This document shows, piece by piece, positions 30,062 to 43,828 of a stretch of DNA of 52,394 bases. The first letter of the stretch is position 1. Each line of letters opens with the position of its first letter. The position numbers and the translations under genes are program-made. Location: positions 1-52,394 of IMG/VR virus record IMGVR_UViG_3300044642_000273; one strand, 5' to 3'. The notes under the pieces were generated by a model, which ran no database searches, was not told the origin of the DNA, and saw nothing but the letters and a program-made list of their open reading frames with translations. This DNA is from a virus.

Positions 30062-30130
30062 ACAGAGTGAGCGAAAGCTAATACTTAACCTGCTATTATC
30101 GATTAAGAAGTACGATAAAATACGGGTATT

Positions 30131-30256: not shown

Positions 30257-30279
30257 TATCTAGAAACTAATTCTTATCC

Positions 30280-30369: not shown

Positions 30370-30403
30370 TGCACTTAAAATCAGACGCATTCATCGAGCC
30401 AGT

Positions 30404-30466: not shown

Positions 30467-30487
30467 ACCAATTATAGTAAAGGAAAT

Positions 30488-30634: not shown

Positions 30635-30741
30635 TGAGTCCGTAAGGACGAAACCACCCAATATGAAATTCAACAAAACATCGTTGAGCGTATGCGACGA
30701 GCATCCCATTGGAGCTCCAAACTCCCAGAGTGGTCTTAGAT
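30625..30741 (+). ncRNA. Hammerhead ribozyme 2 with long stem III insertion
   Basis: Stem I is ATCTAA (30625-30630) with TTAGAT (30736-30741). CTGATGA is at 30631-30637. Stem II is GTCC-GTAA-GGAC. GAA at 30650-30652 leads into stem III ACCAC (30653-30657) with GTGGT (30730-30734). The predicted cut is after GTC at 30735. Instead of a tetraloop, stem III is closed by 72 bases that include a TTGGAGCTCCAA palindrome. All core bases are intact. Confidence 0.88.
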
Positions 30742-30755
30742 TAAAAGGAATTATT

Positions 30756-30968
30756 ATGAGTATTTATACAAGTGCATTAGCACGAATCGAAGAAGTAAAT
30801 CGATTAAACAAAAACTTAGGTCATAAAGACGAATGTGGAATTACTGAATCGAAAGATCCAGTCGGCGAAGTAGATCGCTCAGAAGCTGCTTACATTGTTA
30901 AGCGTGCTAAAGAGTTAGGTATTACTCCGTTTGAATTCATTATGAAACCTCTATCAGAGAAGAAATAA
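30756..30968 (+). CDS. Small hypothetical protein
   Basis: 70 residues from the ATG at 30756, which has AAAAGGA upstream. A longer frame from 30618 would run through ribozyme 2 and is rejected. The sequence is charged and helical, ending in VKRAKELGITPFEFIMKPLS. Its stop overlaps the next start (TAATG). It is the first gene after the ribozyme 2 cut. Confidence 0.65.
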   Translation: MSIYTSALARIEEVNRLNKNLGHKDECGITESKDPVGEVDRSEAAYIVKRAKELGITPFEFIMKPLSEKK

Positions 30969-31078
30969 TGGATCACAGTAGTCCTAGTGTAACTGAAATT
31001 ATCGAATGGATAGCGACCATTGCGATGTGTACATCATTCTTTGTGATTACATCTTATATTATCGCTAAAATAATTTAA
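30968..31078 (+). CDS. Single-span membrane peptide
   Basis: 36 residues: polar start MDHSSPSVTEIIEW and one hydrophobic helix (IATIAMCTSFFVITSYIIA). The ATG overlaps the upstream stop, so translation is probably coupled. Function unknown; small early membrane peptides often act on the host envelope. Confidence 0.5.
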   Translation: MDHSSPSVTEIIEWIATIAMCTSFFVITSYIIAKII

Positions 31079-31092
31079 TTAAAGGAAATATT

Positions 31093-31350
31093 ATGAAAAG
31101 AGACTATATTGCAGCTTACAATCAACTACAAAAGATCGGCGTTCCTGTATATGAGCATAGTGATGATAAAGGAAACTTTAGCATTGATGCAGAACATCCA
31201 GAATCGTATCTTTGGTGTGATTACTACGATGGTAGCTCCATCCCAGATTGGGACTTTGGCGTTAATCCAAAAATCGGACAAATCCTCTCAAAACGTGGAT
31301 TGTTCGCAGAATGGGTTAATCCAGGACGACTCGCTGTTTACATTATTTAA
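31093..31350 (+). CDS. Hypothetical protein
   Basis: 85 residues (MKRDYIAAYNQLQKIGVPVY, then DYYDGSSIPDWDFGVNPKIG). AAAGGAAAT precedes the ATG. No family is recognised. Sequence in the +1 frame after its stop looks protein-like, see the next entry. Confidence 0.65.
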   Translation: MKRDYIAAYNQLQKIGVPVYEHSDDKGNFSIDAEHPESYLWCDYYDGSSIPDWDFGVNPKIGQILSKRGLFAEWVNPGRLAVYII

Positions 31351-31441
31351 AGTAAACGGAAAAGAGTATCACATACTTGCCTACGCTATGCAAATGGCGA
31401 ATGGCAAGGAAATAGAAATCATTAAACATAAAGGAAATTAA
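31321..31441 (+). other. Possible +1-frame extension or overlapping gene
   Basis: In the +1 frame relative to the 85-residue gene, an open stretch reads DDSLFTLFKVNGKEYHILAY onward and ends KHKGN before a stop at 31441. No start codon with a ribosome site lies near. It may be reached by frameshifting near the ATT-TAA at 31345-31350, be a decayed gene part, or be chance. Confidence 0.25.
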
Positions 31442-31442
31442 T

Positions 31443-31694
31443 ATGAACATGGAACAATTTAAAGAGTTGCAGCAGTATTATGCGCACGATCTATTTGACT
31501 TCGTCTATGGCGAAGGCTTATCATACGAGCTTTACGATAAACTATTTACCATCTATACCGAATCAGGTGAGATGCCTTATGGTGTCGCTAAAGCTCGAAC
31601 TGACGATCCATATACATGGATTGATGATCGCTTTACAGCGTTTATTGAGCAGAACAATCTGCAAGATGAATGTGCAATTGAAAACATTAATTAA
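31443..31694 (+). CDS. Small acidic hypothetical protein
   Basis: 83 residues, acidic and aromatic-rich (LQQYYAHDLFDFVYGEGLSY). The ATG follows AAAGGAAATTAAT. No family is recognised. Confidence 0.65.
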   Translation: MNMEQFKELQQYYAHDLFDFVYGEGLSYELYDKLFTIYTESGEMPYGVAKARTDDPYTWIDDRFTAFIEQNNLQDECAIENIN

Positions 31695-31703
31695 GGAAAA
31701 CTT

Positions 31704-31802
31704 ATGAAATATTATTTCGTATTACAAGATGGTTCAGTAGTGTTTGCAAAAACATACGTAGAGCTTAAAGATAAAATTAAACAATACATAGAAAGTAACT
31801 AA
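31704..31802 (+). CDS. 32-residue peptide
   Basis: MKYYFVLQDGSVVFAKTYVE then LKDKIKQYIESN. AAGGAAAA lies upstream, and its TAA overlaps the next ATG (TAATG). The short beta-strand pattern followed by a helix looks like a folded micro-protein. Function unknown. Confidence 0.5.
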   Translation: MKYYFVLQDGSVVFAKTYVELKDKIKQYIESN

Positions 31803-31978
31803 TGGAATTTATTACAGCACTTATAATCTTAGCAATTTTCGTAGTAGCGGTTATTGGTTATATCATGAACATTGTTAAACTTGTCAGATCTACAGAAATG
31901 ACAGGTAAAACTATTGCACGTGGAATTGGAATATTCTTCTTCCCATTGGGTGCAATCTTAGGTTATGTGTCTAACTGA
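31802..31978 (+). CDS. Small two-span membrane protein ending inside ribozyme 3
   Basis: 58 residues with two hydrophobic stretches (FITALIILAIFVVAVIGYIM and IGIFFFPLGAILGY) joined by a charged loop. The TGA stop (31976-31978) is within the CTGATGA core of ribozyme 3. It could be a holin-like or superinfection protein given the transglycosylase gene next door, but this is speculation. Confidence 0.55.
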   Translation: MEFITALIILAIFVVAVIGYIMNIVKLVRSTEMTGKTIARGIGIFFFPLGAILGYVSN

Positions 31979-32019
31979 TGAGTCGGTAACGACGAAACCG
32001 TAGTGATACGGTCTTAGAC
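31969..32019 (+). ncRNA. Hammerhead ribozyme 3 (type I)
   Basis: Stem I is GTCTAA (31969-31974) with TTAGAC (32014-32019). CTGATGA is at 31975-31981. Stem II is GTCG-GTAA-CGAC. Stem III is ACCGTA-GTGA-TACGGT. The predicted cut is after GTC at 32013. Outside stem II it is identical to ribozyme 8, showing recent duplication or exchange within the genome. Confidence 0.95.
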
Positions 32020-32043
32020 TAAAAGGAGTAGTAAACACTTATT

Positions 32044-32544
32044 ATGAAAAATAATATAAAAGTTGTTATATTGGCTACGTTGATCTTTTTATTAGGTTTG
32101 TTAATCGGTGTAATGATTAAACAAGAAAAAGAAGAGCCAATGATTGTAAAGCCTGTAACAACACAACAGTACGTGAAATACATACGACAAGAAGCTAAAA
32201 AGATCGGTTTAGATCCTGAATTAGCTCTTGCAGTGGCGATTACAGAAAGTGAATTGAACCCTGATGCTAGAAGTAAAGTAGGTGCTATTGGTATTATGCA
32301 AGTAATGCCGACAACTGCTAAATATCTAGGATTTGATCCACACGATCCTACAGAAAATATTAAAGGTGGCTTAGCTTACCTTAAATATCTTGTAGAAAAG
32401 TTTGGTGTAGAGCATGGTGTAGCAGCTTATAACGCTGGTCCAACCCGTATGCATAAAGTGCGTGCTGGTGCTTCAACAATGCCACGTGAAACTAAACACT
32501 ACATCAAGAAAGTAATCGCTAAGAAAAATGAATTAGAAGTTTAA
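32044..32544 (+). CDS. Membrane-anchored lytic transglycosylase (SLT domain)
   Basis: 166 residues. An N-terminal membrane helix (VVILATLIFLLGLLIGVMI, about residues 7-25) probably acts as a signal anchor. The SLT domain has the catalytic Glu in AITESELNPDARS, then GAIGIMQVMPTTAKYLGF and AYNAGPTRMHKV. It would cleave peptidoglycan in the periplasm for lysis or entry. It is the first gene after the ribozyme 3 cut. A second SLT protein is encoded at 48.4 kb. Confidence 0.85.
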   Translation: MKNNIKVVILATLIFLLGLLIGVMIKQEKEEPMIVKPVTTQQYVKYIRQEAKKIGLDPELALAVAITESELNPDARSKVGAIGIMQVMPTTAKYLGFDPHDPTENIKGGLAYLKYLVEKFGVEHGVAAYNAGPTRMHKVRAGASTMPRETKHYIKKVIAKKNELEV

Positions 32545-32562
32545 TATTATAAAGGAAATAAA

Positions 32563-32709
32563 ATGGAAATGAAGTATTTAATTATCGCAATCGGTATAGT
32601 GTATTTACTAATTGGTATCGATCAGCTTCGCAAAGGAGCTGTTGGTAACTTTATTATTTATGCTGGATATGCGTTTAGTAACGTCGGCCTATTTATGATG
32701 GCCAAATAA
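32563..32709 (+). CDS. Small membrane protein
   Basis: 48 residues with two hydrophobic segments (YLIIAIGIVYLLIGI and FIIYAGYAFSNVGLFMM) separated by DQLRKGAVGN. AAAGGAAATAAA precedes the ATG. It directly follows the transglycosylase gene, so a holin-like role is possible but unproven. Confidence 0.55.
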   Translation: MEMKYLIIAIGIVYLLIGIDQLRKGAVGNFIIYAGYAFSNVGLFMMAK

Positions 32710-32717
32710 GATTGCCT

Positions 32718-32854
32718 GGTTGGAGCATCACGAAAGTGAAAACAACCTAGCGCTTATTCGCTCTACCCTTTGATCGGGTAAGCGCACGCTTTTGCATCTT
32801 GAGCGGAAAAATCAAGGTGCCATTTGGAATGCATTTTACACTAGAATGTATTCC
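32718..32854 (+). ncRNA. Structured non-coding RNA element with four hairpins
   Basis: Four stems follow one another: GGTTG/CAACC (32718-32747) enclosing TCAC-GAAA-GTGA; GCGCTT/AAGCGC (32750-32785) enclosing ACCC/GGGT; GCATCTTGA with TCAAGGTGC (32794-32820); and GGAATGCATT with AATGTATTCC (32826-32854). Nothing codes here and no U-tract follows. It ends 20 bases before a candidate promoter. It could be a small RNA, an RNase-resistant element or a regulatory leader. Confidence 0.55.
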
Positions 32855-32873
32855 CAATGACTCAACTATTACG

Positions 32874-32890
32874 TAAGTTATTGATTTTAA
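32874..32890 (+). promoter_or_regulatory. Candidate phage RNAP promoter
   Basis: TAAGTTATTGATTTTAA, identical to the control-region repeats over 17 bases, lies just upstream of a ribosome site (TAAGGAAAT) and the ATG at 32903. The bases before it (CAACTATTACG) are almost the same as before the copy at 36666. Confidence 0.55.
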
Positions 32891-32902
32891 TAAGGAAATT
32901 TT

Positions 32903-33250
32903 ATGAATATACAAGAAATGAGAGCCAACTTTCTAAATGGCAAATTATATGCAATGCATCATGCTTACTCAGACGTTAATCCGTATGAAGTATTACGAGT
33001 TGTAAGTGATAATTGTTTGGAGATACGTGCAATGGACCATGAAAATGATCCTAACGATATGCCAAAGTTTATAGCAGGTGGCTTTAGCGTCATTTGCACT
33101 CATTTTGGATCTCGAGTAATCACTTCAAATCCAAATAATCGTGTAATTCGTATTAGACGTAGAAAGAAAGATCCAAATAGATGGGTTCACAAAGGTATGA
33201 GATTTACCTTAGATGTAGAACCTCATGCTTATTACGATCATAATTTCTAA
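32903..33250 (+). CDS. Hypothetical protein
   Basis: 115 residues. The middle is mixed alpha/beta with a basic run (NNRVIRIRRRKKDPNRWVHK) and the end is aromatic (EPHAYYDHNF). First gene after a candidate promoter. No family is recognised. Confidence 0.65.
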   Translation: MNIQEMRANFLNGKLYAMHHAYSDVNPYEVLRVVSDNCLEIRAMDHENDPNDMPKFIAGGFSVICTHFGSRVITSNPNNRVIRIRRRKKDPNRWVHKGMRFTLDVEPHAYYDHNF

Positions 33251-33251
33251 T

Positions 33252-33368
33252 ATGATAATACTAATACTATTACTGGGTATTATGACCATCAACGTTATAC
33301 TAGCTTTTGTTTTACGCAAGTATAGCATTTATAAAGATTCAGATTTTAAAGGAAAAGATAAGAAATAA
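33252..33368 (+). CDS. Single-span membrane peptide
   Basis: 38 residues: hydrophobic helix MIILILLLGIMTINVILAF followed by a basic tail (SDFKGKDKK at the end). Its TAA overlaps the next ATG (TAATG). Function unknown. Confidence 0.5.
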   Translation: MIILILLLGIMTINVILAFVLRKYSIYKDSDFKGKDKK

Positions 33369-33637
33369 TGTATAATCAATTTAGAGAACATGTAAGATTT
33401 AAAGACTATGGCACTACTAGAGCAGAGCTAATCGAAGAGTTTAGAAAATTCTATGACGCTGATTTAGAGAAAGCCACTAAACAGTTTGAGTTTCATGAAG
33501 AGATGGCAGGACACAATTTCCTAGTTGTTGCAGTTACTAGACAACCAGTCAATTCTTTAGGACATCATACTATTGAGGTAACATTGGCACCAATAGACAA
33601 AGTAGATGATGATTTAATCTACCCGGAAGGAGACTAA
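33368..33637 (+). CDS. Hypothetical protein
   Basis: 89 residues. A helical first half (TTRAELIEEFRKFYDADLEK) is followed by beta strands (HNFLVVAVTRQPVNSLG). It is coupled to the membrane peptide upstream and ends one base before the ligase ATG. No family is recognised. Confidence 0.65.
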   Translation: MYNQFREHVRFKDYGTTRAELIEEFRKFYDADLEKATKQFEFHEEMAGHNFLVVAVTRQPVNSLGHHTIEVTLAPIDKVDDDLIYPEGD

Positions 33638-33638
33638 T

Positions 33639-34472
33639 ATGAGTGAATTTAAACTAATGTTAGCATCTGTATGTGATCCAGCAAAGCTTGTCTTTCCTAA
33701 ACTCGCATCACCAAAACTTGACGGTATTCGTTGCACCATTCGTAATGGCACTGCGCTAAGCCGTAACGGTAAACCTATTCGAAATAAGTTTGTGCAGTCC
33801 ATTATTGGTAACAATCACTTAAACGGATTGGATGGCGAACTTATGGTTGGCGATCCAACTGCAAGTGATGCTTTCCGTCAAGCAACGTCTGGCGTTATGT
33901 CAGAAGACGGTGAGCCAAAGTTTACGTTTATGGTGTTTGACTATTACCATTCAGACTTAGGCTTTAGTGACCGCTTACAGTTAGCGAAAGAGATGGTGCA
34001 AGACTTTGGCGTACCTAAATACGTAAAGATTGTGCCACATAAGAAAGTAAAAGACATCGCTCAGCTAGACGCTCTTGAAGAGAAATGGCTTGAAGATGGA
34101 TACGAAGGTGTTATGCTACGTTCATTAGATGGTCCATACAAACTTGGACGATCAAGCGTAACTGAAGGACATTTACTGAAAGTGAAACGCTTTAGCGATG
34201 CTGAAGCTACTATCGTAAGCTACGTAGAAGAAATCCATGGCAAAACACAATTGCCAAAGAATTCTTTAGGTAAGTTTATGTGCCGTACACCAGAAGGTAT
34301 TGTATTCGGTGTAGGTGGTGGATATAGCGCTAAAGAGCGCAAAGAGTTTTGGGAAAATCGAGATGCGATGATTGGACTTACGTTGAAGTATAAATACTTT
34401 ACTGTAGGTATGAAAGATGCTCCACGATTCCCGACATTCTTAGGTATTCGTGATGAAAACGATATGAGTTAA
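33639..34472 (+). CDS. ATP-dependent DNA ligase, T7 gp1.3-like
   Basis: 277 residues. Nucleotidyltransferase motifs are present: KLDGIR with the adenylated Lys (about residue 27), LDGELMVG, FMVFDYYHSD, EGVMLRSLDG and GHLLKVKRF. The C-terminal part is a short OB-like domain (GKFMCRTPEGIVFGVGGGYS), so the enzyme is about 80 residues shorter than T7 ligase. It would seal nicks in replication. Its TAA lies in stem I of ribozyme 4. Confidence 0.9.
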   Translation: MSEFKLMLASVCDPAKLVFPKLASPKLDGIRCTIRNGTALSRNGKPIRNKFVQSIIGNNHLNGLDGELMVGDPTASDAFRQATSGVMSEDGEPKFTFMVFDYYHSDLGFSDRLQLAKEMVQDFGVPKYVKIVPHKKVKDIAQLDALEEKWLEDGYEGVMLRSLDGPYKLGRSSVTEGHLLKVKRFSDAEATIVSYVEEIHGKTQLPKNSLGKFMCRTPEGIVFGVGGGYSAKERKEFWENRDAMIGLTLKYKYFTVGMKDAPRFPTFLGIRDENDMS

Positions 34473-34518
34473 ACTGATGAGGCTTTAGTAGCCGAAACGC
34501 CGTGACGGCGTCTTTAAC
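34468..34518 (+). ncRNA. Hammerhead ribozyme 4 (type I)
   Basis: Stem I is GTTAAA (34468-34473) with TTTAAC (34513-34518). CTGATGA is at 34474-34480. Stem II is GGCT/AGCC with loop TTAGT. Stem III is ACGCC/GGCGT closed by GTGAC. The predicted cut is after GTC at 34512. The ligase stop codon TAA (34470-34472) is part of stem I. Confidence 0.94.
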
Positions 34519-34536
34519 ATTTTATAAAGGAATATT

Positions 34537-34923
34537 ATGGGATTAGATATGTTTGCGCATAGCGTCGCTAAAAATAACGCTATTGATGACCTCACTATGA
34601 CTAGTGATACTGACAGTCCACAAGATAACGTTGAAATTTTCTATTGGAGAAAACATCACGATTTGCATGGATGGATGAAAGAGCTATTTCATTCTAAAGG
34701 TGGTGAAGGTGAGTTTAATCTTCAACCTATTCGTCTTACATTAGATGATTTAGATAAACTCGAAGCAGCGGTGTTACAAAACACTCTACCTTTTACTACA
34801 GGAATGTTTTTCGGAAACAACCCGCCTGATGAAGAATCGCAGACGCGTGATTTAACGTTTATTGACAAAGCACGCTCACACATCTATGTTGGACGTGAAA
34901 TTTATTATAACTCTTGGTGGTAA
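34537..34923 (+). CDS. Conserved phage protein, MGLDM family
   Basis: 128 residues starting MGLDMFAHSV. Proteins with this start and with EIFYWRKHHDLHGWM, TTGMFFGNN and a Tyr-rich end (EIYYNSWW) are widespread in phages and bacteria, sometimes mislabelled as kinases; the function is not established. First gene after the ribozyme 4 cut, with AAAGGAATATT upstream. Confidence 0.75.
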   Translation: MGLDMFAHSVAKNNAIDDLTMTSDTDSPQDNVEIFYWRKHHDLHGWMKELFHSKGGEGEFNLQPIRLTLDDLDKLEAAVLQNTLPFTTGMFFGNNPPDEESQTRDLTFIDKARSHIYVGREIYYNSWW

Positions 34924-34925
34924 TC

Positions 34926-35156
34926 ATGGAAAAATGGCTTACCTTAACCAAATGGTTAGGAACTATTTTGTGTCTAACAGGTATAGCACTTACTAGCTTC
35001 AACATTTATCCGTTAAATATTGTACTAAGCCTTATAGGCAGCTTACTATGGACAGTGGCAGGATTCCTTCAAAAGGATCCTCCATTAATCTTAGTAGAAG
35101 CAGCTGCGGTTGGGCTTTACTTTATTGGTATAATTACTTATTTAGGAACATTATGA
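34926..35156 (+). CDS. Small multi-span membrane protein
   Basis: 76 residues from the ATG at 34926; a TTG at 34914 would add four residues. Three hydrophobic segments are visible: LGTILCLTGIALTSF, IVLSLIGSLLWTVAGFL and EAAAVGLYFIGIITYLG. Its stop overlaps the next start (ATGA). Function unknown. Confidence 0.6.
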   Translation: MEKWLTLTKWLGTILCLTGIALTSFNIYPLNIVLSLIGSLLWTVAGFLQKDPPLILVEAAAVGLYFIGIITYLGTL

Positions 35157-35410
35157 AAAAATTTAAGATAGGAGATTTAGTCGCTGTAAACACTTTACCT
35201 GATTGCCAAGTATATCATCTATACGAGCAACATCAGAGAAATAAGTTTATGTTTTATCTAACTTACTACTCAAATGGGAAGTTGTGCGGCGGAGGTTGGT
35301 TAGACGTTAGCGCTTTTCGCGAACCGTCAAAGGATCAACTTAAAAACTACATAGCTACATCGCTGCCTGAAATCGGCGTATCTGCTACTGAAGATGCAGT
35401 AACAAATTAA
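35153..35410 (+). CDS. Hypothetical protein
   Basis: 85 residues. The start at 35153 is chosen because of the ATGA overlap with the membrane gene. The first half looks like a small beta barrel (MKKFKIGDLVAVNTLPDCQV, YHLYEQHQRNKFMFYLTYY), the second half helical. No family is recognised. Confidence 0.6.
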   Translation: MKKFKIGDLVAVNTLPDCQVYHLYEQHQRNKFMFYLTYYSNGKLCGGGWLDVSAFREPSKDQLKNYIATSLPEIGVSATEDAVTN

Positions 35411-35427
35411 TTTATAAGGAAAACATT

Positions 35428-35889
35428 ATGAAAGAAAATAAATTGGCTCAAATGCCAGCAGGTAAGTATTGGATTGGTGACTTGTGTTATGTAATGCACG
35501 ATAATTGGGATGAGTTTTGCCAAAAAGCTTACGACAGTGAAACTGGTAAAGACAACAATGGTCTTATGGTTCTCAATAACGGCACCAAAGTCGCATGGTT
35601 TAACACTAAGTGGGGCGATGGACTCTATCGCGATACCAGAGGTAATAGGTATCCTGTAGACGCAGGTCTTATTGGGTGCATAAAGATGAACGACATCGAC
35701 TTTGACCATCCGCATAACGATCTACTTGGAGGCAATATAGTCTCATTCAAAGAAGATTTCGAATGTGGATATGAAAATGGTCTTATTTGGTTTGGTCATG
35801 GCAAAGACTCAGTTGAAATTCAAACTGACGATATGTATGGCGAAGACGAAGAGGAAGAAGACGAAGATTACGAACAATCTTATAACTAA
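35428..35889 (+). CDS. Conserved hypothetical phage protein
   Basis: 153 residues. GKYWIGDLCYVMHDNWDEFC and DAGLIGCIKMNDID match a pattern common in phage and bacterial small proteins of unknown function (often seen as GKYYIGDPCYV). The last 20 residues are a nearly pure acidic run. AAGGAAAACATT precedes the ATG. Confidence 0.7.
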   Translation: MKENKLAQMPAGKYWIGDLCYVMHDNWDEFCQKAYDSETGKDNNGLMVLNNGTKVAWFNTKWGDGLYRDTRGNRYPVDAGLIGCIKMNDIDFDHPHNDLLGGNIVSFKEDFECGYENGLIWFGHGKDSVEIQTDDMYGEDEEEEDEDYEQSYN

Positions 35890-35900
35890 GGAAAAAACAA

Positions 35901-36074
35901 ATGGACATTATTGCACAACGTGAAAGAATGCGTAATCGCAAAAAAGTATTAACAGAGCAAGTTAAGACATTGTTAGCACAAGAAGAGTATGACGATTACG
36001 TTGTTGCTCTTGCTAAAGGAAGAGTGTTTGAACTTGAAGAACAGTATTATGAATTATTTGGAGAAGATTTATGA
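35901..36074 (+). CDS. Small helical protein
   Basis: 57 residues, all helical and charged (MDIIAQRERMRNRKKVLTEQ at the start, LEEQYYELFGEDL at the end). AAGGAAAAAAC lies before the ATG and the stop overlaps the next start (ATGA). Function unknown. Confidence 0.6.
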   Translation: MDIIAQRERMRNRKKVLTEQVKTLLAQEEYDDYVVALAKGRVFELEEQYYELFGEDL

Positions 36075-36397
36075 AATCTAATAAACAACGAACAGAAAAC
36101 TGGGTCGCTACTCTACCTACACTCACCTCGCCAGAAGACCAAATGGCCTTAGCAGCCATTAAGTCGTCTGTAAAGGCTATCAACATGCAAAATGCGCATC
36201 ACGATCACTTAGCTTATGGCAAAGGGTGGAGAAGTTATAAGCGTTTCGATGCTGATTGTAACGAGCGCCGCTTACCTCGCTATCGCGTCACCATTAGAGC
36301 GCGTGGTCCAGTTGATGGACATAAGTATGGATGGGGCGGGTATCTCAAACTCGCTGGTGGTAGCCGCTTTGACATCTACATTCACGAAAGACGCTAA
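36071..36397 (+). CDS. Hypothetical basic protein
   Basis: 108 residues, basic, with many Arg, His and Tyr (ERRLPRYRVTIRARGPVDGH). Coupled to both neighbours by ATGA and TAATG overlaps. No family is recognised; nucleic-acid binding is possible. Confidence 0.65.
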   Translation: MKSNKQRTENWVATLPTLTSPEDQMALAAIKSSVKAINMQNAHHDHLAYGKGWRSYKRFDADCNERRLPRYRVTIRARGPVDGHKYGWGGYLKLAGGSRFDIYIHERR

Positions 36398-36591
36398 TGA
36401 CTAAATTTATCGTAGTGGAAACAACTAAAGAAAATAAAGATCGTAAACTCGCTGTAAAAGACTCTTTAGCTGAAGCTATGAAAGAGCAAAAGAAACAGCG
36501 AAAGCTAGTGCCTGATACTTCAGCTGTCAGTATTGCTGAGAAAGACACTTACGATTTTATTCAAAAGCATAACAAGAAAAAGTCAAACTGA
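36397..36591 (+). CDS. Small charged protein ending inside ribozyme 5
   Basis: 64 residues, Lys/Glu-rich and helical (MTKFIVVETTKENKDRKLAV at the start). Its TGA (36589-36591) is within the CTGATGA core of ribozyme 5. Function unknown. Confidence 0.6.
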   Translation: MTKFIVVETTKENKDRKLAVKDSLAEAMKEQKKQRKLVPDTSAVSIAEKDTYDFIQKHNKKKSN

Positions 36592-36632
36592 TGAGTCCTC
36601 AATGGACGAAACGCCGAGATGGCGTATTTGAC
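36582..36632 (+). ncRNA. Hammerhead ribozyme 5 (type I, GUA cleavage site)
   Basis: Stem I is GTCAAA (36582-36587) with TTTGAC (36627-36632). CTGATGA is at 36588-36594. Stem II is GTCC/GGAC with loop TCAAT. Stem III is ACGCC/GGCGT with loop GAGAT. The cleavage triplet is GTA, cut after 36626, which satisfies the NUH rule but differs from the GTC of the other seven. Confidence 0.93.
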
Positions 36633-36633
36633 A

Positions 36634-36651
36634 CTCCGTATCGCTACGGAG
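36634..36651 (+). other. Perfect hairpin after ribozyme 5
   Basis: CTCCGTA pairs with TACGGAG across a TCGC loop, starting two bases after ribozyme 5. No U-tract follows. After cleavage it would sit 7 bases from the new 5' end, so it may protect that end. Confidence 0.55.
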
Positions 36652-36665
36652 ACCCAACTATAACG

Positions 36666-36682
36666 TAAGTTATTGATTATAA
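36666..36682 (+). promoter_or_regulatory. Candidate phage RNAP promoter
   Basis: TAAGTTATTGATTATAA differs by one base from the control-region repeat. It is followed by the ribosome site AAAGGA and the ATG at 36693. The preceding bases (CAACTATAACG) match those before the copy at 32874. Confidence 0.55.
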
Positions 36683-36692
36683 AGGACTTATT

Positions 36693-37031
36693 ATGAAAGA
36701 GTTATTAACATTAATACGTAGACGCTTAAGCGACGCAAAAGAGCGCGTAAATAAGCAAGCAAAGAAATCACGATATTTAGAGTTTAACGTGACTGTAGAG
36801 TATTTACTACAACTATGGATGAAACAGAATGGAAAATGCGCTATTGAGAATATTCCACTATCAATAGAAACACACTCTATTACAATTGCTTCATTAGACA
36901 GAATTAACTCTGATGTTGGATACGTAGAAGGAAACGTTCAATGGGTTACAAAGCGCGTAAATATCGCAAAAAGTAATCTATCTGACGCTGACTTTAAAGC
37001 AATGATTTTCAACGCTTACAAAGGACTTTAA
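36693..37031 (+). CDS. HNH-like endonuclease
   Basis: 112 residues. NGKCAIENIPLSIE, then ASLDRINSDVGYVEGNVQWV and VNIAKSNLSDADF follow the pattern of a widespread phage HNH-type fold in which the usual His and Cys pairs are partly lost. It may be a small nuclease or homing endonuclease; activity is uncertain because the canonical catalytic His is not evident. Confidence 0.65.
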   Translation: MKELLTLIRRRLSDAKERVNKQAKKSRYLEFNVTVEYLLQLWMKQNGKCAIENIPLSIETHSITIASLDRINSDVGYVEGNVQWVTKRVNIAKSNLSDADFKAMIFNAYKGL

Positions 37032-37032
37032 T

Positions 37033-37305
37033 ATGGCTGGAGAGCAAGCAAGTAGTGTATCAACGCGAGAATTTAAAGGCTATAAAGTAAAGCCTCATAA
37101 TAAACCACCATCATCGGTATATTTCAATCAAATTAAAAAGTTTATAATTGAGAGATATCCAACGATGTATACTATATGCAAAGAACGGTATGGAGAAAAA
37201 GAGTGGTGGGAGATTGTGTATAAAGAAATGACAGAATACACTTTCGACTTTGAAGACAATCAAGCAAGATTTCTATACGCAAAGTACGTAAAGGAGTTTA
37301 AATGA
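37033..37305 (+). CDS. Hypothetical protein
   Basis: 90 residues, rich in Lys, Tyr and Phe (YPTMYTICKERYGEKEWWEI). It starts one base after the HNH-like gene and overlaps the next gene by four bases. No family is recognised. Confidence 0.6.
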   Translation: MAGEQASSVSTREFKGYKVKPHNKPPSSVYFNQIKKFIIERYPTMYTICKERYGEKEWWEIVYKEMTEYTFDFEDNQARFLYAKYVKEFK

Positions 37306-37784
37306 ATATTTTCTACTTAGCAGCAGATCCGTATGTGGCAGCATCTATGCATTGTGATAAACACGTTTGTAAAATGATTATTGAAACAGCACAAATGTTG
37401 TCATCAGTGCAAGCAAGGTATGGATCAGACAATACTCCTTACAAACCTACTCACGTAAAACATCCATCAACGTTATGGGCAGGTGATTCTGCTTCTAACT
37501 ATAAATGGCTAGTGAGCTTAGGTAAAGGCTTATGTAATGAATACACTAGACGGTATGGCAAAATCCATAAGACGCAAGAGATTATAGACAAATTGTCGGA
37601 ATCTCCTGATGGTCTACCGGATGTTGGATATACTAAGATGCCACAGTGTATGCCTGAAGAGTATAAGACTGAAGATTCTATTACTGCTTATCGTAATTAT
37701 TACATTGCTGATAAAATGCGATTTGCAAAATGGAAATATACAGAAACACCAGCATGGTGGCCAAGTGTAACTGAAGAGGCTTGA
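37302..37784 (+). CDS. Pyrimidine-dimer-glycosylase-like conserved phage protein
   Basis: 160 residues. MNIFYLAADPYVAASMHCDK, then HVCKMIIETAQMLSS, SNYKWLVSLGKGLCNEYTRR and CMPEEYKTEDSITAYRNYY match a phage family sometimes linked to pyrimidine dimer excision proteins. The T4 endonuclease V relationship is distant, so the repair function is tentative. Its last codons and stop (37782-37784) run into ribozyme 6: coding sequence forms stem I, the core and one strand of stem II. Confidence 0.65.
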   Translation: MNIFYLAADPYVAASMHCDKHVCKMIIETAQMLSSVQARYGSDNTPYKPTHVKHPSTLWAGDSASNYKWLVSLGKGLCNEYTRRYGKIHKTQEIIDKLSESPDGLPDVGYTKMPQCMPEEYKTEDSITAYRNYYIADKMRFAKWKYTETPAWWPSVTEEA

Positions 37785-37815
37785 ATAGCCGAAACGCCGA
37801 GATGGCGTCTTACAC
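37765..37815 (+). ncRNA. Hammerhead ribozyme 6, overlapping coding sequence
   Basis: Stem I is GTGTAA (37765-37770) with TTACAC (37810-37815). The core is CTGAAGA (37771-37777), with A at the free seventh position. Stem II is GGCT/AGCC with loop TGAAT. Stem III is ACGCC/GGCGT with loop GAGAT. The predicted cut is after GTC at 37809. The upstream stop TGA is in loop II, so 17 bases of ribozyme precede it and encode the last residues VTEEA. Confidence 0.92.
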
Positions 37816-37832
37816 ATTATTAAAGGAGGAAG

Positions 37833-39389
37833 ATGAGTACAGTAAAAGAAAAGTTGTACGTCCTTCGACGTGAAAAATCGGTCTTAGAGGCCGACTTGCG
37901 ATCTCTAAAAGCGAGACGTGAGAATGCCAAGCGCGCTAACAGACAGGCTATTGACGTAGGTCCTGATCCGTTTTACTATCGCGTAGGTATGGACTTTCGC
38001 GGTCGCCTTTACTATAAAGGTGCCCACTTAAATCCACAAATGGGTGATGATGTAAAGGTAGTATTGACGTTAGCCAATAAGAAACCTCTAGGCACTAATG
38101 GACTCCATTGGTTATGTTGGGGAGTCGCTTCTGCGGCTGGCTACGATAAAGCCGCTTTTGGTGCACGTGTTACATACACTCGTGAGCATTTGCAAGAGAT
38201 ACGTAAGGCAGTAGAAGACCCATCAACATCAGATTATTTTATAAACACTGTGATGAAAGATGGTGAGCCTGCGCTATTTCTTCAACGCGCTAATGAGTTG
38301 ATTAATGCGATAGATAGTGGTGATAGCGCTTCATACGAGACTGATGTAACGATCGCTATGGACGCTACATGCTCTGGTTTGCAGATTCTATCAGCAGTCG
38401 CTAAGGATCGTCAAGGTGGTAGTTTAGTAAACATCACTGAAACTCCTGAAACGCAGACTGAAAAGGCTGATGTGTATGGCACAGTTGCAAAACTAATCTT
38501 GAAGAAGTATTCACAACTTCCAGAAAACTATTTTGCACAATGGGTAATTCTAAATGGAATACCTCGAAGATTTACTAAGCGTCCTGTTATGACATTACCT
38601 TATTCAGCTACTATTCGTAGTGCTATCGGTTATGTCCAGACAGAGTTGCAAGGTAATTCAGAAAAAGGTATTGCACCTTATCCTTTACCACCATCAGAAG
38701 AAGATAGACGACGTTTACAACTATCAATTAAATCTCTAATGGGTAAAGAAGAATCAGGCGAAGTAAAGTTGGACGATAATTCACTTTATTACGGTATGGC
38801 AACTCTTATTGCGCGTGACATTCACGGCGTATGTAGAGAAACTATTCCTGCCGCAATGACTCTTCTTGAATTCTTTAAATCTACACCAAAGAAGTTATAC
38901 GATCACGCTATTTGGAATACTCCTGATGGCTTATATGTAAAACAGCGCTATGGCGTTGAAGAAGAGAGTCGTACTAAGTATACGCTAACATGGGTAGACC
39001 AAGATACTGGTGAGATTTGCCAGAAACTTATCCAACGTAGATATGCGTATATCGACCCAAGTGATAGAGATAGAAGTAAAGCGTCTAACGGTATGCCTCC
39101 TAATTGGGTGCACTCTTTAGATGGCACATTAGTGCGTAGAGTTATGCTAAGCGCTCCTTTTGAGATTATCGCCATCCATGATTCATTCGCTGCACATCCT
39201 GCAGACTGTGATGATTTGGCTAGAATCTTACGTGAGCAATTCGTATGGATCGTTGAGCAAGAGCCTTTGCAACGCTTAATCGATCAGCTTAACGCGCAAG
39301 TTGGAGAAGAGGTCTTTAAGTCAGAGCCACTTATGTTAAATACGTGGAATCCTAAAGAAGCCTTAAACTCTGAATTTCTATTTTGTTAA
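37833..39389 (+). CDS. T7-type RNA polymerase, catalytic C-terminal half
   Basis: 518 residues. It corresponds to T7 RNA polymerase from just before MDWRGR to the end. MDFRGRLY is at residue 53; AMDATCSGLQ carries catalytic Asp177 (T7 D537); TKRPVMTLPYS carries Lys249, Arg250 and Tyr257 (T7 K631, R632, Y639); HSLDGTLVRR is at 427; IHDSFAAHPAD carries catalytic Asp450 (T7 D812). The end LNSEFLFC matches the T7 C-terminus. Residues 1-40 are a charged helix replacing the whole N-terminal domain. AAAGGAGGAAG precedes the ATG. The N-terminal half is the next gene. Confidence 0.93.
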   Translation: MSTVKEKLYVLRREKSVLEADLRSLKARRENAKRANRQAIDVGPDPFYYRVGMDFRGRLYYKGAHLNPQMGDDVKVVLTLANKKPLGTNGLHWLCWGVASAAGYDKAAFGARVTYTREHLQEIRKAVEDPSTSDYFINTVMKDGEPALFLQRANELINAIDSGDSASYETDVTIAMDATCSGLQILSAVAKDRQGGSLVNITETPETQTEKADVYGTVAKLILKKYSQLPENYFAQWVILNGIPRRFTKRPVMTLPYSATIRSAIGYVQTELQGNSEKGIAPYPLPPSEEDRRRLQLSIKSLMGKEESGEVKLDDNSLYYGMATLIARDIHGVCRETIPAAMTLLEFFKSTPKKLYDHAIWNTPDGLYVKQRYGVEEESRTKYTLTWVDQDTGEICQKLIQRRYAYIDPSDRDRSKASNGMPPNWVHSLDGTLVRRVMLSAPFEIIAIHDSFAAHPADCDDLARILREQFVWIVEQEPLQRLIDQLNAQVGEEVFKSEPLMLNTWNPKEALNSEFLFC

Positions 39390-39397
39390 GGAGTTAC

Positions 39398-40285
39398 ATG
39401 AATTTACATCAAAGAGAGATTGAATTAGAGAATGCTAAGTTGGCAAAGGATCGCCACTTAGAGATTCGTCAGAAACTTGACTCTATTTCAATCGAATTCT
39501 CGAAAGAGATTATTGACTTAAGCTTTCACATTGATAAATGGAGAAAGGTAGATAGAAAACCTAGAGAAGTTGAAAGACTAGCTTATGCTAGCTTGTTAAA
39601 TAAAGTGCCTTCTATCGTTCTAGCAGAAAACGTTGTTCGTGCTTTATTCGAATCATACATTAACGTAGACATTGGAGCACCTTTAACGTATGCTACTGTT
39701 GTTAACAATAAGTTAATTCAGCAGAGATTACGTAGTTTACTTCCTAACGAGGAAACAGCAATACCGATACAGTTTAAATTCTCTTTAGTAGATTTACTAG
39801 TATCCCGTACTGTTAGATATCTTCCTTCATTATTTATCGATGTTGAAAGTAGAAAACTTGGTACTCCAGACTCCATCGAACTCACAAAAGTCGCAAAAGA
39901 GCGTTTAGGCAAGATTTCTATTCAGGAATTGTTAACTGACGTTCCAATGAGATGCAAACCTGCGAAATGGACTTCAGTATTTCATGGTGGTTTCTTAACA
40001 TCAGAAATGCAGCGTGGAAATCCACTGATTGGGTCTCGTTATCACGATTATAAAGAATTGATTGAAATCGATAAGTCTTTGCAAAGTAATCCTGAAATTT
40101 TAGAATCTGTAAATAAAATGCAAAACGTAGCATTTAAAATCGATCCTAACTTTCAGAAATATCAAAAGATTATTGATGATATTCGAAAATCGAAGATAAA
40201 AGAGATTCAAACTCAAATCGACAAGAAGCGAGAAGAGATTTCACGATGTGAAAAGGAGTTAGATTTGAGTATCCCTATTAGATAG
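39398..40285 (+). CDS. T7-type RNA polymerase, N-terminal half
   Basis: 295 residues from the ATG at 39398 with AAGGAG upstream, eight bases after the catalytic half. About residues 190-255 align with T7 RNA polymerase residues roughly 260-330: MRCKPAKWTSVFHGGFLTSE matches T7 VVPPKPWTGITGGGYW, and SRYHDYKELIEI plus VNKMQNVAFKID match T7 THSKKALMRY and INIAQNTAWKIN. The earlier part is mixed helical, as in the T7 N-terminal domain. The last 35 residues form a charged helix (IKEIQTQIDKKREEISRCEK). It would complete the polymerase in trans. Order relative to the catalytic half is reversed. Confidence 0.8.
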   Translation: MNLHQREIELENAKLAKDRHLEIRQKLDSISIEFSKEIIDLSFHIDKWRKVDRKPREVERLAYASLLNKVPSIVLAENVVRALFESYINVDIGAPLTYATVVNNKLIQQRLRSLLPNEETAIPIQFKFSLVDLLVSRTVRYLPSLFIDVESRKLGTPDSIELTKVAKERLGKISIQELLTDVPMRCKPAKWTSVFHGGFLTSEMQRGNPLIGSRYHDYKELIEIDKSLQSNPEILESVNKMQNVAFKIDPNFQKYQKIIDDIRKSKIKEIQTQIDKKREEISRCEKELDLSIPIR

Positions 40286-40329
40286 ACCATACGGGATATC
40301 TAGTTTTTAACTTATGGAGAATAGCCAAG

Positions 40330-40884
40330 ATGGCAAAACTAAAAACTGCAATTACACCGAAAGGTACTTTATCATGGCCATACATTGGTCGTCCTGATAC
40401 AAGATACAATCCTGAAGGTGTCTATAAGACCAGCTTAATTGTACCGGCAGCTGAAGCCGAATCGCTGATGGAAACATGCAAACAGATGTTTATTGATGAG
40501 TATGGTAATGCCAAACTCGCCAAAGCGAACATGCCTTTCTCACCTGAAGTCGATGACCAAGGTAACGAAACAGGCAACATCGTGTTTAAGTTTAAATCTA
40601 AACGACAGCCAAAACTGTATGACGCTAAAGGTAAAGTAATTACTAAAAACCTTCAAGTTGCATCAGGCACAGTGGCTAAAGTCGCTACAGCGATTAATCC
40701 TTACGCTACAGGTATCAACGTTGGTGTTTCACTTTATTTGAACGACGTTCAGATTATCGAGTTAGTAGAATACGGCAAAGGCAGCCTATTCGGACAAGAA
40801 GATGGTTTCGAGTTCGACGACGATGGTGAGCCTAACGAACCTTCTACTACTGGATCGAAGAGTGAAGAAAACGCGGACTTCTAA
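40330..40884 (+). CDS. Single-stranded DNA-binding protein, T7 gp2.5-like
   Basis: 184 residues. An OB-fold type sequence (GTLSWPYIGRPDTRYNPEGV, VFKFKSKRQPKLYDAKGKV, YATGINVGVSLYLNDVQIIE) is followed by an acidic tail ending in an aromatic residue (EENADF). That tail is the T7 gp2.5 feature which contacts DNA polymerase and primase-helicase. The gap before it (40286-40329) shows no clear element. Confidence 0.88.
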   Translation: MAKLKTAITPKGTLSWPYIGRPDTRYNPEGVYKTSLIVPAAEAESLMETCKQMFIDEYGNAKLAKANMPFSPEVDDQGNETGNIVFKFKSKRQPKLYDAKGKVITKNLQVASGTVAKVATAINPYATGINVGVSLYLNDVQIIELVEYGKGSLFGQEDGFEFDDDGEPNEPSTTGSKSEENADF

Positions 40885-41269
40885 GCAAGTTGGAATTTAT
40901 CACGGATTTCGAAGTGGTCTTGAGGAACGCATAGCGGAGCAATTGACAACGCTTAACGTTCCTTTCACCTTTGAAGAGGTCAAGATAAAGTATGTGAAAC
41001 CTCAACGATCTGCTACCTATTGTCCGGATTTTATCCTGTCGAATGGTATCATCGTTGAGACTAAAGGTCGTTTCCTAACGGCTGATAGACAAAAGCACAT
41101 ACTGATTAAAGAGCAGCATCCTGAGTTGGACTTACGTTTTGTATTTAGTAACTCAAATGCACGTATCTCTAAGACTTCGAAAACTACATACGCAGATTGG
41201 TGTATTAAAAATGGGTTTGTCTTTGCAGATAAACTTATTCCAATCGAATGGATAAACGAAACACGCTAA
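40862..41269 (+). CDS. Endonuclease I, T7 gp3-like Holliday junction resolvase
   Basis: 135 residues from a GTG at 40862, chosen because it gives the family's N-terminal length; no ATG fits. The catalytic residues of T7 endonuclease I are conserved in HGFRSGLEERI (Glu), YCPDFIL (Asp) and VETKGRF (Glu, Lys). ADKLIPIEWI at the end also matches. It would resolve branched replication intermediates and degrade host DNA. It overlaps the ssDNA-binding gene by 23 bases. Confidence 0.9.
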   Translation: MKKTRTSKQVGIYHGFRSGLEERIAEQLTTLNVPFTFEEVKIKYVKPQRSATYCPDFILSNGIIVETKGRFLTADRQKHILIKEQHPELDLRFVFSNSNARISKTSKTTYADWCIKNGFVFADKLIPIEWINETR

Positions 41270-41279
41270 GGAGAATACG

Positions 41280-42899
41280 TTGATTGAAAATGAAGAGTCG
41301 AGATTCCTAAGACACGAATCCTGCGACAGTTGCGGATCGAGCGACGCTAAGGCAGTTTATTCGAATGGATCGACCTTTTGCTTCGCTTGTCAAGTTTCTA
41401 CTCGCAGTGAAGGTGGCAAAACTAAGGTGATGAATAACACATCTCCTTCTCTTGCACCATTCTTTGACGCTCAAATAGAGCCACTCGCCGCTAGAGGTAT
41501 TTCCGAAGCGACTTGTAAACGGTTTGGCGTACGTAAAGGTGATTTAAATGGACGTAATGTCCACTTCTATCCTTACGTTGTAGATGGTGAAGTAGTTGCC
41601 GCTAAGACTAGAGATAAAGACAAAAACTTCAAGATTATTGGAGATGGAAAAGACTTACCATTCTTTGGTCAGCATCTTACTCCTAATCCAAGTGATAAAC
41701 TTACTTTAGTTGTTACTGAAGGTGAGATCGATGCGCTATCTATGTCTCAGATTATGGGAAATAAATGGCCTGTTGTATCTATTCCACAAGGAGCTCAAGG
41801 CGCCATAAAAACTTTTAGAAGCCAAATTGAATGGCTAGATAAGTTTAAAGATGTTGTTATCATGTTTGATAATGATGGTGCTGGTAGAGATGCCGCTCTG
41901 AAATGTGCTGAAGTATTACGACCTGGTAAAGCCAGAATCGCTTCACTTCCGCTCAAAGACGCCAACGAAATGTTGATGGCTGAGCGTACTGAGGAGTTGA
42001 TGAAGGCGTTTTGGGACGCTAAGCACTTCCGTCCGGATGGTATTCTATCTGGAAATGAGTTGTGGGAATCTGTATCACGTGAAGAGTCTACCATCACAGT
42101 AGAGTATCCTTTCTCGAAACTAAATGAAACTACTTTAGGTATTCGTAGAGGTGAGCTAGTGACTGTTACGGCAGGCTCAGGTATTGGTAAGTCAGCGTTT
42201 ATGCGAGAAATCGCGCATCATTTACTTTCACTAGGTGAGACAGTGGGTATGGTGATGTTAGAAGAAAATCCTAGACGAACTGCATTAGGTCTTATGGGAT
42301 TATCTTTGAATAAACCTTTGCACTTATCTCGTGACGGTGTATCTAATGAAGAGTTACGCAAAGCGTTTGATGACACATTAGGCACCAATCGTGTATTCTT
42401 ATACGATCACTTTGGTAGTACGGAAGTAGATTACCTTATGAATAAATTAAGGTATATGGTAAAAGGTTTACAGTGTAATTGGTTGATTCTTGACCACCTA
42501 TCCATTCTTGTATCAGGATTGGAAGGCGTAGATGAGCGTAGACTTATCGATCAAGCAATGACTATGTTACGTACCTTTGTTGAAGAAACAGGTTGTGGAT
42601 TGTTGTTAGTAAGCCATTTACGACGGCCAGATGGAAAAGGCCATGAAGAAGGAGCTGCTACATCACTATCACAATTGCGTGGATCACATGCCATCGCTCA
42701 ACTCTCTGACATTGTAGTCGGTTTAGAGCGTAATCAACAAGGTGACAATCCTAATGAAACTCAAATTAGAGTATTAAAGAATCGTTTCTCTGGTCAAACT
42801 GGAGAAGCTGGTAAACTTTACTTTAATCGAGAGACAGGACGATTGACTGAAACATTTACTATGGCACCTGAAACATTCACAGCAAGTTCGGATTTTTAA
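41280..42899 (+). CDS. Primase-helicase, T7 gp4-like
   Basis: 539 residues from a TTG at 41280, supported by AAGGAGAA eight bases upstream. A zinc-binding domain is at residues 12-40 (CDSCGSS and CFAC). The toprim primase has VVTEGEIDALSM and VIMFDNDGAGRDAA. The RecA-like helicase has Walker A GSGIGKSAF and Walker B WLILDHLS, then LLVSHLRRP. It unwinds DNA and primes lagging strands. The order after ssb and endonuclease I is that of T7. Confidence 0.92.
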   Translation: MIENEESRFLRHESCDSCGSSDAKAVYSNGSTFCFACQVSTRSEGGKTKVMNNTSPSLAPFFDAQIEPLAARGISEATCKRFGVRKGDLNGRNVHFYPYVVDGEVVAAKTRDKDKNFKIIGDGKDLPFFGQHLTPNPSDKLTLVVTEGEIDALSMSQIMGNKWPVVSIPQGAQGAIKTFRSQIEWLDKFKDVVIMFDNDGAGRDAALKCAEVLRPGKARIASLPLKDANEMLMAERTEELMKAFWDAKHFRPDGILSGNELWESVSREESTITVEYPFSKLNETTLGIRRGELVTVTAGSGIGKSAFMREIAHHLLSLGETVGMVMLEENPRRTALGLMGLSLNKPLHLSRDGVSNEELRKAFDDTLGTNRVFLYDHFGSTEVDYLMNKLRYMVKGLQCNWLILDHLSILVSGLEGVDERRLIDQAMTMLRTFVEETGCGLLLVSHLRRPDGKGHEEGAATSLSQLRGSHAIAQLSDIVVGLERNQQGDNPNETQIRVLKNRFSGQTGEAGKLYFNRETGRLTETFTMAPETFTASSDF

Positions 42900-42916
42900 C
42901 TTTATTGGAGAATTAA

Positions 42917-43186
42917 ATGTCAACACAATTATACTTTGCAGTAAAAGCAATTAAAGAAAACAAAAACGGCGCTACTTCGCAACACTTAGCGAAATACGGT
43001 ATCAAGAATGCCTCAGCCGTAATCTCAACACTACGCAAACGTGGCCACACTATTGTGACACAATTCGTAACCAAGAATGGTCAACGTGTTGGTAAATATT
43101 TGATGCCTTTTGGCACACGTACTGAAGAAGCAAAACTTACTAAAACAGCTCGTAAGGCAATTGCCAAGGAGTTTGGGTTAGCATAA
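42917..43186 (+). CDS. Small winged-helix-like DNA-binding protein
   Basis: 89 residues. NGATSQHLAKYGIKNASAVI then STLRKRGHTIVTQFVTKNGQ has the spacing of a winged helix-turn-helix, with a basic C-terminal helix. It lies between primase-helicase and ribozyme 7. A transcription or replication regulator is likely. Confidence 0.6.
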   Translation: MSTQLYFAVKAIKENKNGATSQHLAKYGIKNASAVISTLRKRGHTIVTQFVTKNGQRVGKYLMPFGTRTEEAKLTKTARKAIAKEFGLA

Positions 43187-43241
43187 ATGTAACTTATTAT
43201 ATACAAAATAGCATGTTTATGTATATTATATGATACAATCA

Positions 43242-43301
43242 GTCTGACTGATGAGCCTTAAATAGGCGAAACCGCCACTCGGGAGAGTCGCGGTCTCAGA
43301 C
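43242..43301 (+). ncRNA. Hammerhead ribozyme 7 (type I, extended stem III)
   Basis: Stem I is GTCTGA (43242-43247) with TCAGAC (43296-43301). CTGATGA is at 43248-43254. Stem II is GCCT/AGGC with loop TAAAT. Stem III is ACCGC/GCGGT, then a C-C mismatch, then ACTC-GGGA-GAGT. The predicted cut is after GTC at 43295. Uniquely it does not overlap a stop codon: 55 very A/T-rich bases separate it from the gene upstream. Confidence 0.94.
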
Positions 43302-43371
43302 ACTCAAAACTATATCGATAAACTGAATCGAATCCTCCTGTAGTTTTAACATCCAATAGGAGTTAAATACT

Positions 43372-43782
43372 ATGAGCATTAAATCGCAAATTATTATGTC
43401 AAGCCGAGAGCATTACAAGGCTCACATTCGTAAACATGTCACTAACATCAACGCAATTCTTGCTAATCCAATCGCTATTCCTGAGCACACAGACATCATG
43501 GACTCGGTTGAAAAAGAACTGTTTGTCATTAGTGAATACGAAAGCAAATTACAAGCATTAGACAAATACATTAAAGATGAGTCTGATGATAATGGTAATA
43601 ACGGCAACAATGGTAATGGCAACGGTGGTAATAATGGAAACAACGGTAATAATGACACAAGCACTACTACCGAATCTTCTACAACTACCGAGACTAATGA
43701 GACTTCAACCACTCAACAAGAAGCCACCATTACAGTCGGTGCAGGCTCTCATTTAACTATTGAGAGACCTTTTACAGTCTAA
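43372..43782 (+). CDS. Low-complexity Asn/Gly/Thr-tailed protein between two ribozymes
   Basis: 136 residues. Residues 1-67 are helical (SSREHYKAHIRKHVTNINAI). Then come an Asn-Gly repeat tract (about residues 68-95), a Ser/Thr/Glu tract and a short beta end (TITVGAGSHLTIERPFTV). AGGAG precedes the ATG. Ribozymes 7 and 8 lie on either side, so cleavage would free this gene as a single-gene message of about 527 bases. Its TAA is in stem I of ribozyme 8. Function unknown. Confidence 0.65.
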   Translation: MSIKSQIIMSSREHYKAHIRKHVTNINAILANPIAIPEHTDIMDSVEKELFVISEYESKLQALDKYIKDESDDNGNNGNNGNGNGGNNGNNGNNDTSTTTESSTTTETNETSTTQQEATITVGAGSHLTIERPFTV

Positions 43783-43828
43783 CTGATGAGTCCTACATGG
43801 ACGAAACCGTAGTGATACGGTCTTAGAC
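43777..43828 (+). ncRNA. Hammerhead ribozyme 8 (type I)
   Basis: Stem I is GTCTAA (43777-43782) with TTAGAC (43823-43828). CTGATGA is at 43783-43789. Stem II is GTCC/GGAC with loop TACAT. Stem III is ACCGTA-GTGA-TACGGT. The predicted cut is after GTC at 43822. The upstream stop TAA (43780-43782) is in stem I. Stems I and III are identical to ribozyme 3. Confidence 0.95.

Follow-up and report, generated by a model that had tools for sequence, protein, structure and literature searches.

A hammerhead ribozyme encoding the C-terminus of a phage protein, and the placement of stop codons in phage hammerheads

The window, the whole stretch of DNA that was analysed, comprises 52,394 nucleotides of a virus (IMG/VR record IMGVR_UViG_3300044642_000273) and carries eight hammerhead ribozymes (HHRs), all on the plus strand and placed between phage genes from 30010 to 43828 (Table 1). 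Seven of them fit a strict HHR motif and one has a long stem III. An earlier note on this sequence had numbered the copy discussed here as ribozyme 6, and it is indeed the sixth of the eight. In order, the registers in which HHR 1 to HHR 8 hold the stop codon of an upstream gene are -1, +3, +3, -2, +3, +13, none, and -1. HHR 6, with register +13, lies between a gene of 160 residues and the C-terminal half of a phage RNA polymerase. The 160-residue protein matches the Pyr_excise family (pyrimidine dimer DNA glycosylase) only barely over the cut-off.

Several neighbouring features deserve description in their own right. HHR 2 retains an intact core and stem I, and a compact version is found at the equivalent place in the related contig L001; comparable long stem III inserts occur in the clade members L001 (at 5508), L003 (at 6103), and L228. 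The cleavage triplet of HHR 5 is GUA instead of GUC, likewise in L001, and HHR 5 is followed in the window by an HNH/endonuclease VII-like gene (36693-37031), which is absent there in L001. The RNA polymerase is split and its parts are in reversed order, the C-terminal half (phrog_414 348-816) standing ahead of the N-terminal part at 39383-40285 (a weak match to Pfam ID PF14700; phrog_414 210-326). In Agrobacterium phage OLIVR1 (Schitoviridae), the annotated RNA polymerase genes lie apart from each other.

Table 1. Features at the HHR 6 junction and the other hammerheads of the window.
Feature	Position	Strand	Remarks
Upstream gene, 160 aa	37302-37784	+	Ends ..WWPSVTEEA*; phrog_624 "DNA binding protein"; Pfam ID PF03013 (Pyr_excise)
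HHR 6 stem I, 5' strand GTGTAA	37765-37770	+	Coding: covers the final 2 nt of Ser AGT, all of GTA, and the first A of ACT; pairs with 37810-37815
HHR 6 core CTGAAGA	37771-37777	+	Coding; free base N7 is 37775, third base of a GAA codon
HHR 6 stem II, 5' strand GGCT	37778-37781	+	Coding: G of GAG, then GCT; pairs with 37787-37790
Stop TGA, first triplet of loop II	37782-37784	+	Loop II is TGAAT, 37782-37786
GAAA strand, stem III, cleavage base C17	37791-37809	+	Stem III pairs 37794-37798 with 37804-37808, loop 37799-37803; C17 is 37809
Leader of downstream message after predicted cut, 23 nt	37810-37832	+	Shine-Dalgarno AAAGGAGG at 37822-37829
Downstream gene, C-terminal half of single-subunit phage RNA polymerase	37833-39389	+	Pfam ID PF00940
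HHR 1	30010-30061	+	TAA of gene 29668-30015 in stem I, register -1
HHR 2, stem III expanded by long insert	30625-30741	+	Core TGA ends ORF 30488-30634, register +3
HHR 3	31969-32019	+	Core TGA ends upstream ORF (..GYVSN*), register +3
HHR 4	34468-34518	+	TAA of gene 33639-34472 in stem I, register -2
HHR 5, cleavage triplet GUA	36582-36632	+	Core TGA ends gene 36397-36591, register +3
HHR 7	43242-43301	+	Sole one of the eight without a gene stop inside; nearest ORF end 56 nt upstream
HHR 8	43777-43828	+	TAA of gene 43372-43782 in stem I, register -1; passes the Rfam gathering score

HHR 6 spans 51 bases (37765-37815, plus strand) and can be written as GTGTAA-CTGAAGA-GGCT(TGAAT)AGCC-GAA-ACGCC(GAGAT)GGCGT-C^TTACAC. 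All three stems are perfect, with 6 bp in stem I, 4 bp in stem II, and 5 bp in stem III, and the open stem I gives the topology of a type I hammerhead. The core corresponds to CUGANGA/GAA with conserved spacing (the GAA(A) at 37791-37794), and the cleavage triplet GUC (GTC, 37807-37809), which agrees with the NUH rule, precedes the 3' strand of stem I, so that the predicted cut falls after 37809. The minimum free energy fold is identical to the hammerhead structure (-15 kcal/mol, z -2.66). Judged from its letters and its predicted fold, HHR 6 has all the sequence and structure features of a type I HHR.

The Rfam Hammerhead models do not match HHR 6 even at E<=5, and the absence of a Hammerhead_1 report is what speaks for a chance fold at a gene end. 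These models miss most such short phage forms, the one copy in the window above their gathering score being that at 43777. HHR 6 scores 62.2 bits (E 1.6e-16) with a covariance model derived from 30 phage HHRs from outside the clade of the window; covariation within this 30-sequence set is partly circular. The strict motif occurs seven times in the real window and in none of 100 dinucleotide shuffles of it, both strands considered. With the compensatory changes in orthologues described below, these results refute a chance fold at the sequence level, leaving it a negligible probability, and they uphold the claim of the earlier note that the ribozyme is real.

The last codons of the upstream gene are AGT GTA ACT GAA GAG GCT TGA, and 17 bases (37765-37781) are shared between gene and ribozyme, namely, the last two nucleotides of the serine codon followed by the codons for VTEEA. 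The VTEEA end, the 17 shared bases, and the core CTGAAGA had all been described correctly before. The stop codon lies in loop II, 25 nt ahead of the predicted cut, in keeping with the earlier statement that the coding region stays intact upstream of the cut. VTEEA can be encoded in 256 synonymous ways, of which, by a hand count, just 2 preserve the core and every Watson-Crick pair; the ribozyme thus fixes the codon choice here.

The junction can be compared in five related contigs in which the 160-residue gene is followed by an HHR (L001, L002, L003, L004, and L059), a comparison of C-termini that had been proposed with the first description. In L001, the protein is 97.5% identical to that of the window and both ribozyme and register (+13) are the same. 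L002, L003, and L004 (61-62% identity) and L059 (59%) keep the HHR with the TAA inside stem I (register -1). From the last conserved proline codon (the CCN of WWP) to stem I there is 1 nt in the window and L001, 6 nt in L059, and 12 nt in L002 to L004, showing that a frame-changing length difference separates registers +13 and -1. In the junction alignment, 100% of the cells are paired and 4 of 15 pairs are changed on both sides, a result of modest weight given only four distinct sequences. These two-sided changes are split evenly, two each, between stem I and stem II, both of which have a coding 5' strand in the window. The same stretch of DNA specifies a conserved hammerhead fold and a protein C-terminus, as had been proposed.

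The peptide itself is not kept. With the HHR retained, the tails at the junction read SVTEEA, KLQTM, or NTV, and the tails also differ among homologues of the 160-residue protein in other phages (about 42% identity), at 17 loci of which (209 kb searched) no HHR was found. Homologues with the same residues but stem-destroying codons, the case that the earlier note had held against a functional fold, were not seen among the relatives; the reverse was seen, with stems kept and residues changed. On this alignment, the RNA element is conserved and the peptide tail is not.

We also observed breaks in similarity at these positions. Between L003 and L004, identity drops from 95.6% in the gene ahead of the ribozyme to 53% in the RNA polymerase behind it, which is a mosaic break. 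The window and L001 share 97.5% identity before the ribozyme, and the polymerase start of L001 matches that of L059 (12 of 13 residues), whereas that of the window matches L003 (85%). Several further breaks in the alignment of the window and L001 coincide with other HHRs.

The placement of stop codons was surveyed in HHRs gathered from IMG/VR viral contigs by pattern scans and from gene-based loci, giving at least 622 distinct HHRs in 377 loci and a final set of at least 674. The sample is non-random, as the motif patterns have fixed stem II or stem I ends and the scanner demands perfect stems; genes are mechanically called ORFs of at least 50 codons, not curated, and the data are DNA throughout. 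In the first set, an ORF end lies within -12 to +16 nt of the core in 267 of 356 HHRs among the matches listed, compared with 7% of random positions on the same contigs, and loci from patterns unbiased for stem I give 307 of 417 (matches listed). Among the 622 HHRs listed, the stop is found directly before stem I in 217, in stem I in 125, in the core in 71, and in loop II or stem II in 62. Preferred stops are TAG ahead of stem I, a TAA that closes stem I, the core TGA, and T(A/G)A opening loop II. Register -6 is mostly occupied by TAG with its G doubling as the first base of stem I (60 of 66 matches listed), and in 522 of 523 cases among the matches listed the stop precedes the cut.

Adjacent phage genes commonly touch or overlap, and the tight placement of HHRs at gene ends could in part reflect general compaction of phage genomes. 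If compaction alone made a small RNA overlap the stops of packed genes, the position of the stop would be unconstrained, and loop II does open with a stop triplet in about 45% of the copies in other registers (matches listed). In the core-reading frame, all 35 entering ORFs of at least 80 codons stop by loop II, with none continuing past the cut, and against the 48% expected from other registers this gives p=6e-12 (matches listed), which points to selection keeping the stop upstream of the cut. The non-redundant core-reading-frame genes of the 674-HHR set behave alike, 40 of 40 among the matches listed stopping in loop II and none past the cut. These counts, and the dominance of the TAG that shares its G with stem I, make a fortuitous overlap improbable. 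Each of the three frames has a stop ahead of the cut in 48% of the HHRs among the matches listed, compared with 15% of composition-matched simulated HHRs.

Of 72 multi-member clusters of homologous upstream genes, 40 contain more than one register (matches listed), indicating from the genomic comparison that the register drifts and the ribozyme at the gene end stays. This bears on the idea that the overlap is a regulatory switch, in which a ribosome on the last codons would unfold stem I, the core, and stem II; translation of the upstream gene would then compete with cleavage and couple expression of the two genes. The geometry of registers +3 and +13, which forces a terminating ribosome onto the ribozyme core, the concentration of gene ends inside the ribozyme, and the RNA polymerase gene downstream all fit such a switch. 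The free change of register among homologues means, however, that the ribosome overlap is not conserved, and 217 of the 622 HHRs listed have their stop just ahead of stem I. Phage polymerases usually outrun ribosomes, and cleavage would then usually come first. Translation and cleavage may compete, but the drift speaks against this being the main point, and as an explanation of the overlap we regard the switch as unlikely.

In the first sample, the register giving the shortest tail seemed to be preferred, a reading that was rejected; that sample was biased by a pattern containing TAA, and the preference is gone in unbiased loci (45:47:36, p=0.45). Downstream of the cut, a Shine-Dalgarno sequence with an ORF start within 40 nt is found for 44% of the HHRs among the matches listed, compared with 5.6% at random positions. 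Near the HHRs, sigma-70 promoter-like sites show no excess over shuffles and terminator-like sites are slightly more frequent than in shuffles. Loop II of the IMG/VR phage HHRs has the consensus T-N-A-A-T with a free second position (matches listed); the T and A hardly vary, which suggests that loop II makes a tertiary contact, perhaps with bases next to stem I. The Agrobacterium phages OLIVR1 to OLIVR3 have one canonical HHR, which is at no stop of a gene of at least 50 codons. The copies in OLIVR1 (L493:3960-4009) and OLIVR3 (L494:4037-4086) are canonical and unannotated, and these cultured Schitoviridae offer a possible laboratory system for cleavage in infection. The canonical-core scanner has no match in phage PaP3, whose HHR was reported as a core variant (PMC3088659).

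The core CTGAAGA had been read earlier as using the one free position of the hammerhead core, N7, to avoid a TGA stop. This reading fails, because the frame of the upstream gene runs NCT GAN GAN and N7 is the third base of a GAN codon, where any base gives Asp or Glu and none can prevent a stop. The sole obligatory stop of the core is U4G5A6, in the frame C|TGA, on which N7 has no influence. An HHR in the same register with the core CTGATGA (L059:7282-7331) is read through to end ..GCT GAT GAG ACT TGA, which likewise rules out stop avoidance; the gene it ends is a different one of 302 aa, located where the N-terminal half of the RNA polymerase would be. Homologous genes in the loop-II register alternate between TTDEA and TTEEA. 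When one HHR per homologous cluster and register is counted, N7 is A in 13 of 49 in the coding (loop-II) register and in 31 of 298 in other registers (p=0.004). The shift is a weak coding effect, from Asp to Glu rather than away from a stop, and hints that protein or translation matters somewhat.

The dual code, which the earlier note had called unusual, is not unique to this locus. The loop-II register accounts for about 10% of the phage HHRs among the matches listed, mostly with unrelated genes. Nearly all of these proteins end in [T/S][D/E]E[A/S/T/P] (matches listed), since the core read as NCT GAN GAN encodes that tail. The recurrence of one tail on mostly unrelated proteins and the enrichment of A at N7 could also mean that selection acts on the tail ([T/S][D/E]E[A/S/T]) as a peptide, which might serve, for instance, in interactions or as a signal for stability, with the ribozyme partly kept for the tail. 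The tail comes automatically with the core, D and E alternate in homologues, and the tail is missing from orthologues whose HHR stands in a different register (WWPKLQTM and WWPNTV), leaving peptide selection very unlikely. The VTEEA tail is dictated by the ribozyme and probably tolerated rather than selected.

We consider it probable that HHR 6 is an mRNA-processing ribozyme fused to gene ends and bringing its own stops. As a type I hammerhead separating two genes on a single phage transcript, the transcribed HHR 6 would fold and cut 25 nt beyond the upstream stop codon. The upstream message would then carry stems II and III at its 3' end, terminating in a 2',3'-cyclic phosphate, and the RNA polymerase message would begin with a 5'-OH and the 23-nt leader with its strong Shine-Dalgarno sequence. 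Such self-acting processing sites would split long phage transcripts into single-gene messages. That HHR 6 cleaves, that it does so during transcription, and that mRNA stability is affected are expectations based on hammerhead biochemistry and on published work in which prophage HHRs cleave.

Under the same processing model, the coding overlap would arise because the ribozyme is fused to the gene end. The motif tends to carry a stop for each frame, namely, the TAA of stem I, the unavoidable UGA of the core, and the T(A/G)A starting loop II, so that a gene in any frame would end before the cut. At the junction studied here, the frame-changing length difference would have put the 160-residue gene into the core-reading frame, where it terminates at the loop II stop. 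What can be read directly from the DNA in this account is the structure and its conservation, the registers, the variable tail, and the stop before the cut. More tentatively, and with rather less than even probability, the element might act as a combined punctuation mark, a three-frame stop cassette joined to an RNA cutter and selected so that translation ends before the cut irrespective of the incoming frame; it would be movable between genes, with interchangeable gene ends and starts, and may be a recombination junction.

HHR 6 shares with the type I hammerhead of Rfam (Rfam ID RF00163, clan CL00010) the CUGANGA..GAA core, the GUC triplet, the open stem I, and the three stems. It differs in being a short phage form of 6, 4, and 5 bp with the loop II T-N-A-A-T, in having a protein-coding 5' half, and in being unmatched by the Rfam model; no loop for a tertiary contact was identified in the sequence of its stem I. 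Clustered hammerheads of phages and prophages were described by Perreault et al. in 2011 (PMC3088659), with several HHRs between phage genes, as in the window. For the prophage clusters, transcript processing was proposed, and the tested clusters cleave in vitro and in vivo (PMC3088659), which, together with the Shine-Dalgarno sequences and ORF starts after the cut, fits the processing-site reading. The main text of that study does not contain the words "stop codon" or "open reading frame", whereas here most HHRs are fused to stops in defined registers. Phage hammerheads have been known for more than a decade, and their role was left open (PMC6155905 and PMC3088659). In the literature considered, which leaves out Jimenez et al. 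and de la Pena et al. (2010-2011, on bacterial and microbiome hammerheads), we found no statement of a systematic fusion to stop codons or of a ribozyme-encoded tail. The HDV-like theta ribozymes of gut phages are also self-cleaving ribozymes of tailed-phage genomes, but have another fold, often occur with viral tRNAs, and are not reported at gene stops in the study describing them (PMC10879173).

The position of the stop inside or just before the ribozyme, ahead of the cut in all but one of the cases counted above, gives phage hammerheads a concrete and testable role. The proposed role is to provide single-gene message ends without host nucleases and never to leave a message without a stop. 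In addition, many unrelated proteins receive a short C-terminal peptide from the ribozyme, which makes this a clear example from nature of protein sequence being constrained by RNA function. A functional parallel is found in the early mRNA of phage T7, where RNase III sites are cut between genes, leaving a hairpin at the 3' end of the upstream message and a fresh leader for the next gene, and where the host protein is needed. The ends of both messages would be similar at HHR 6, with the difference that the HHR 6 RNA would cut itself.
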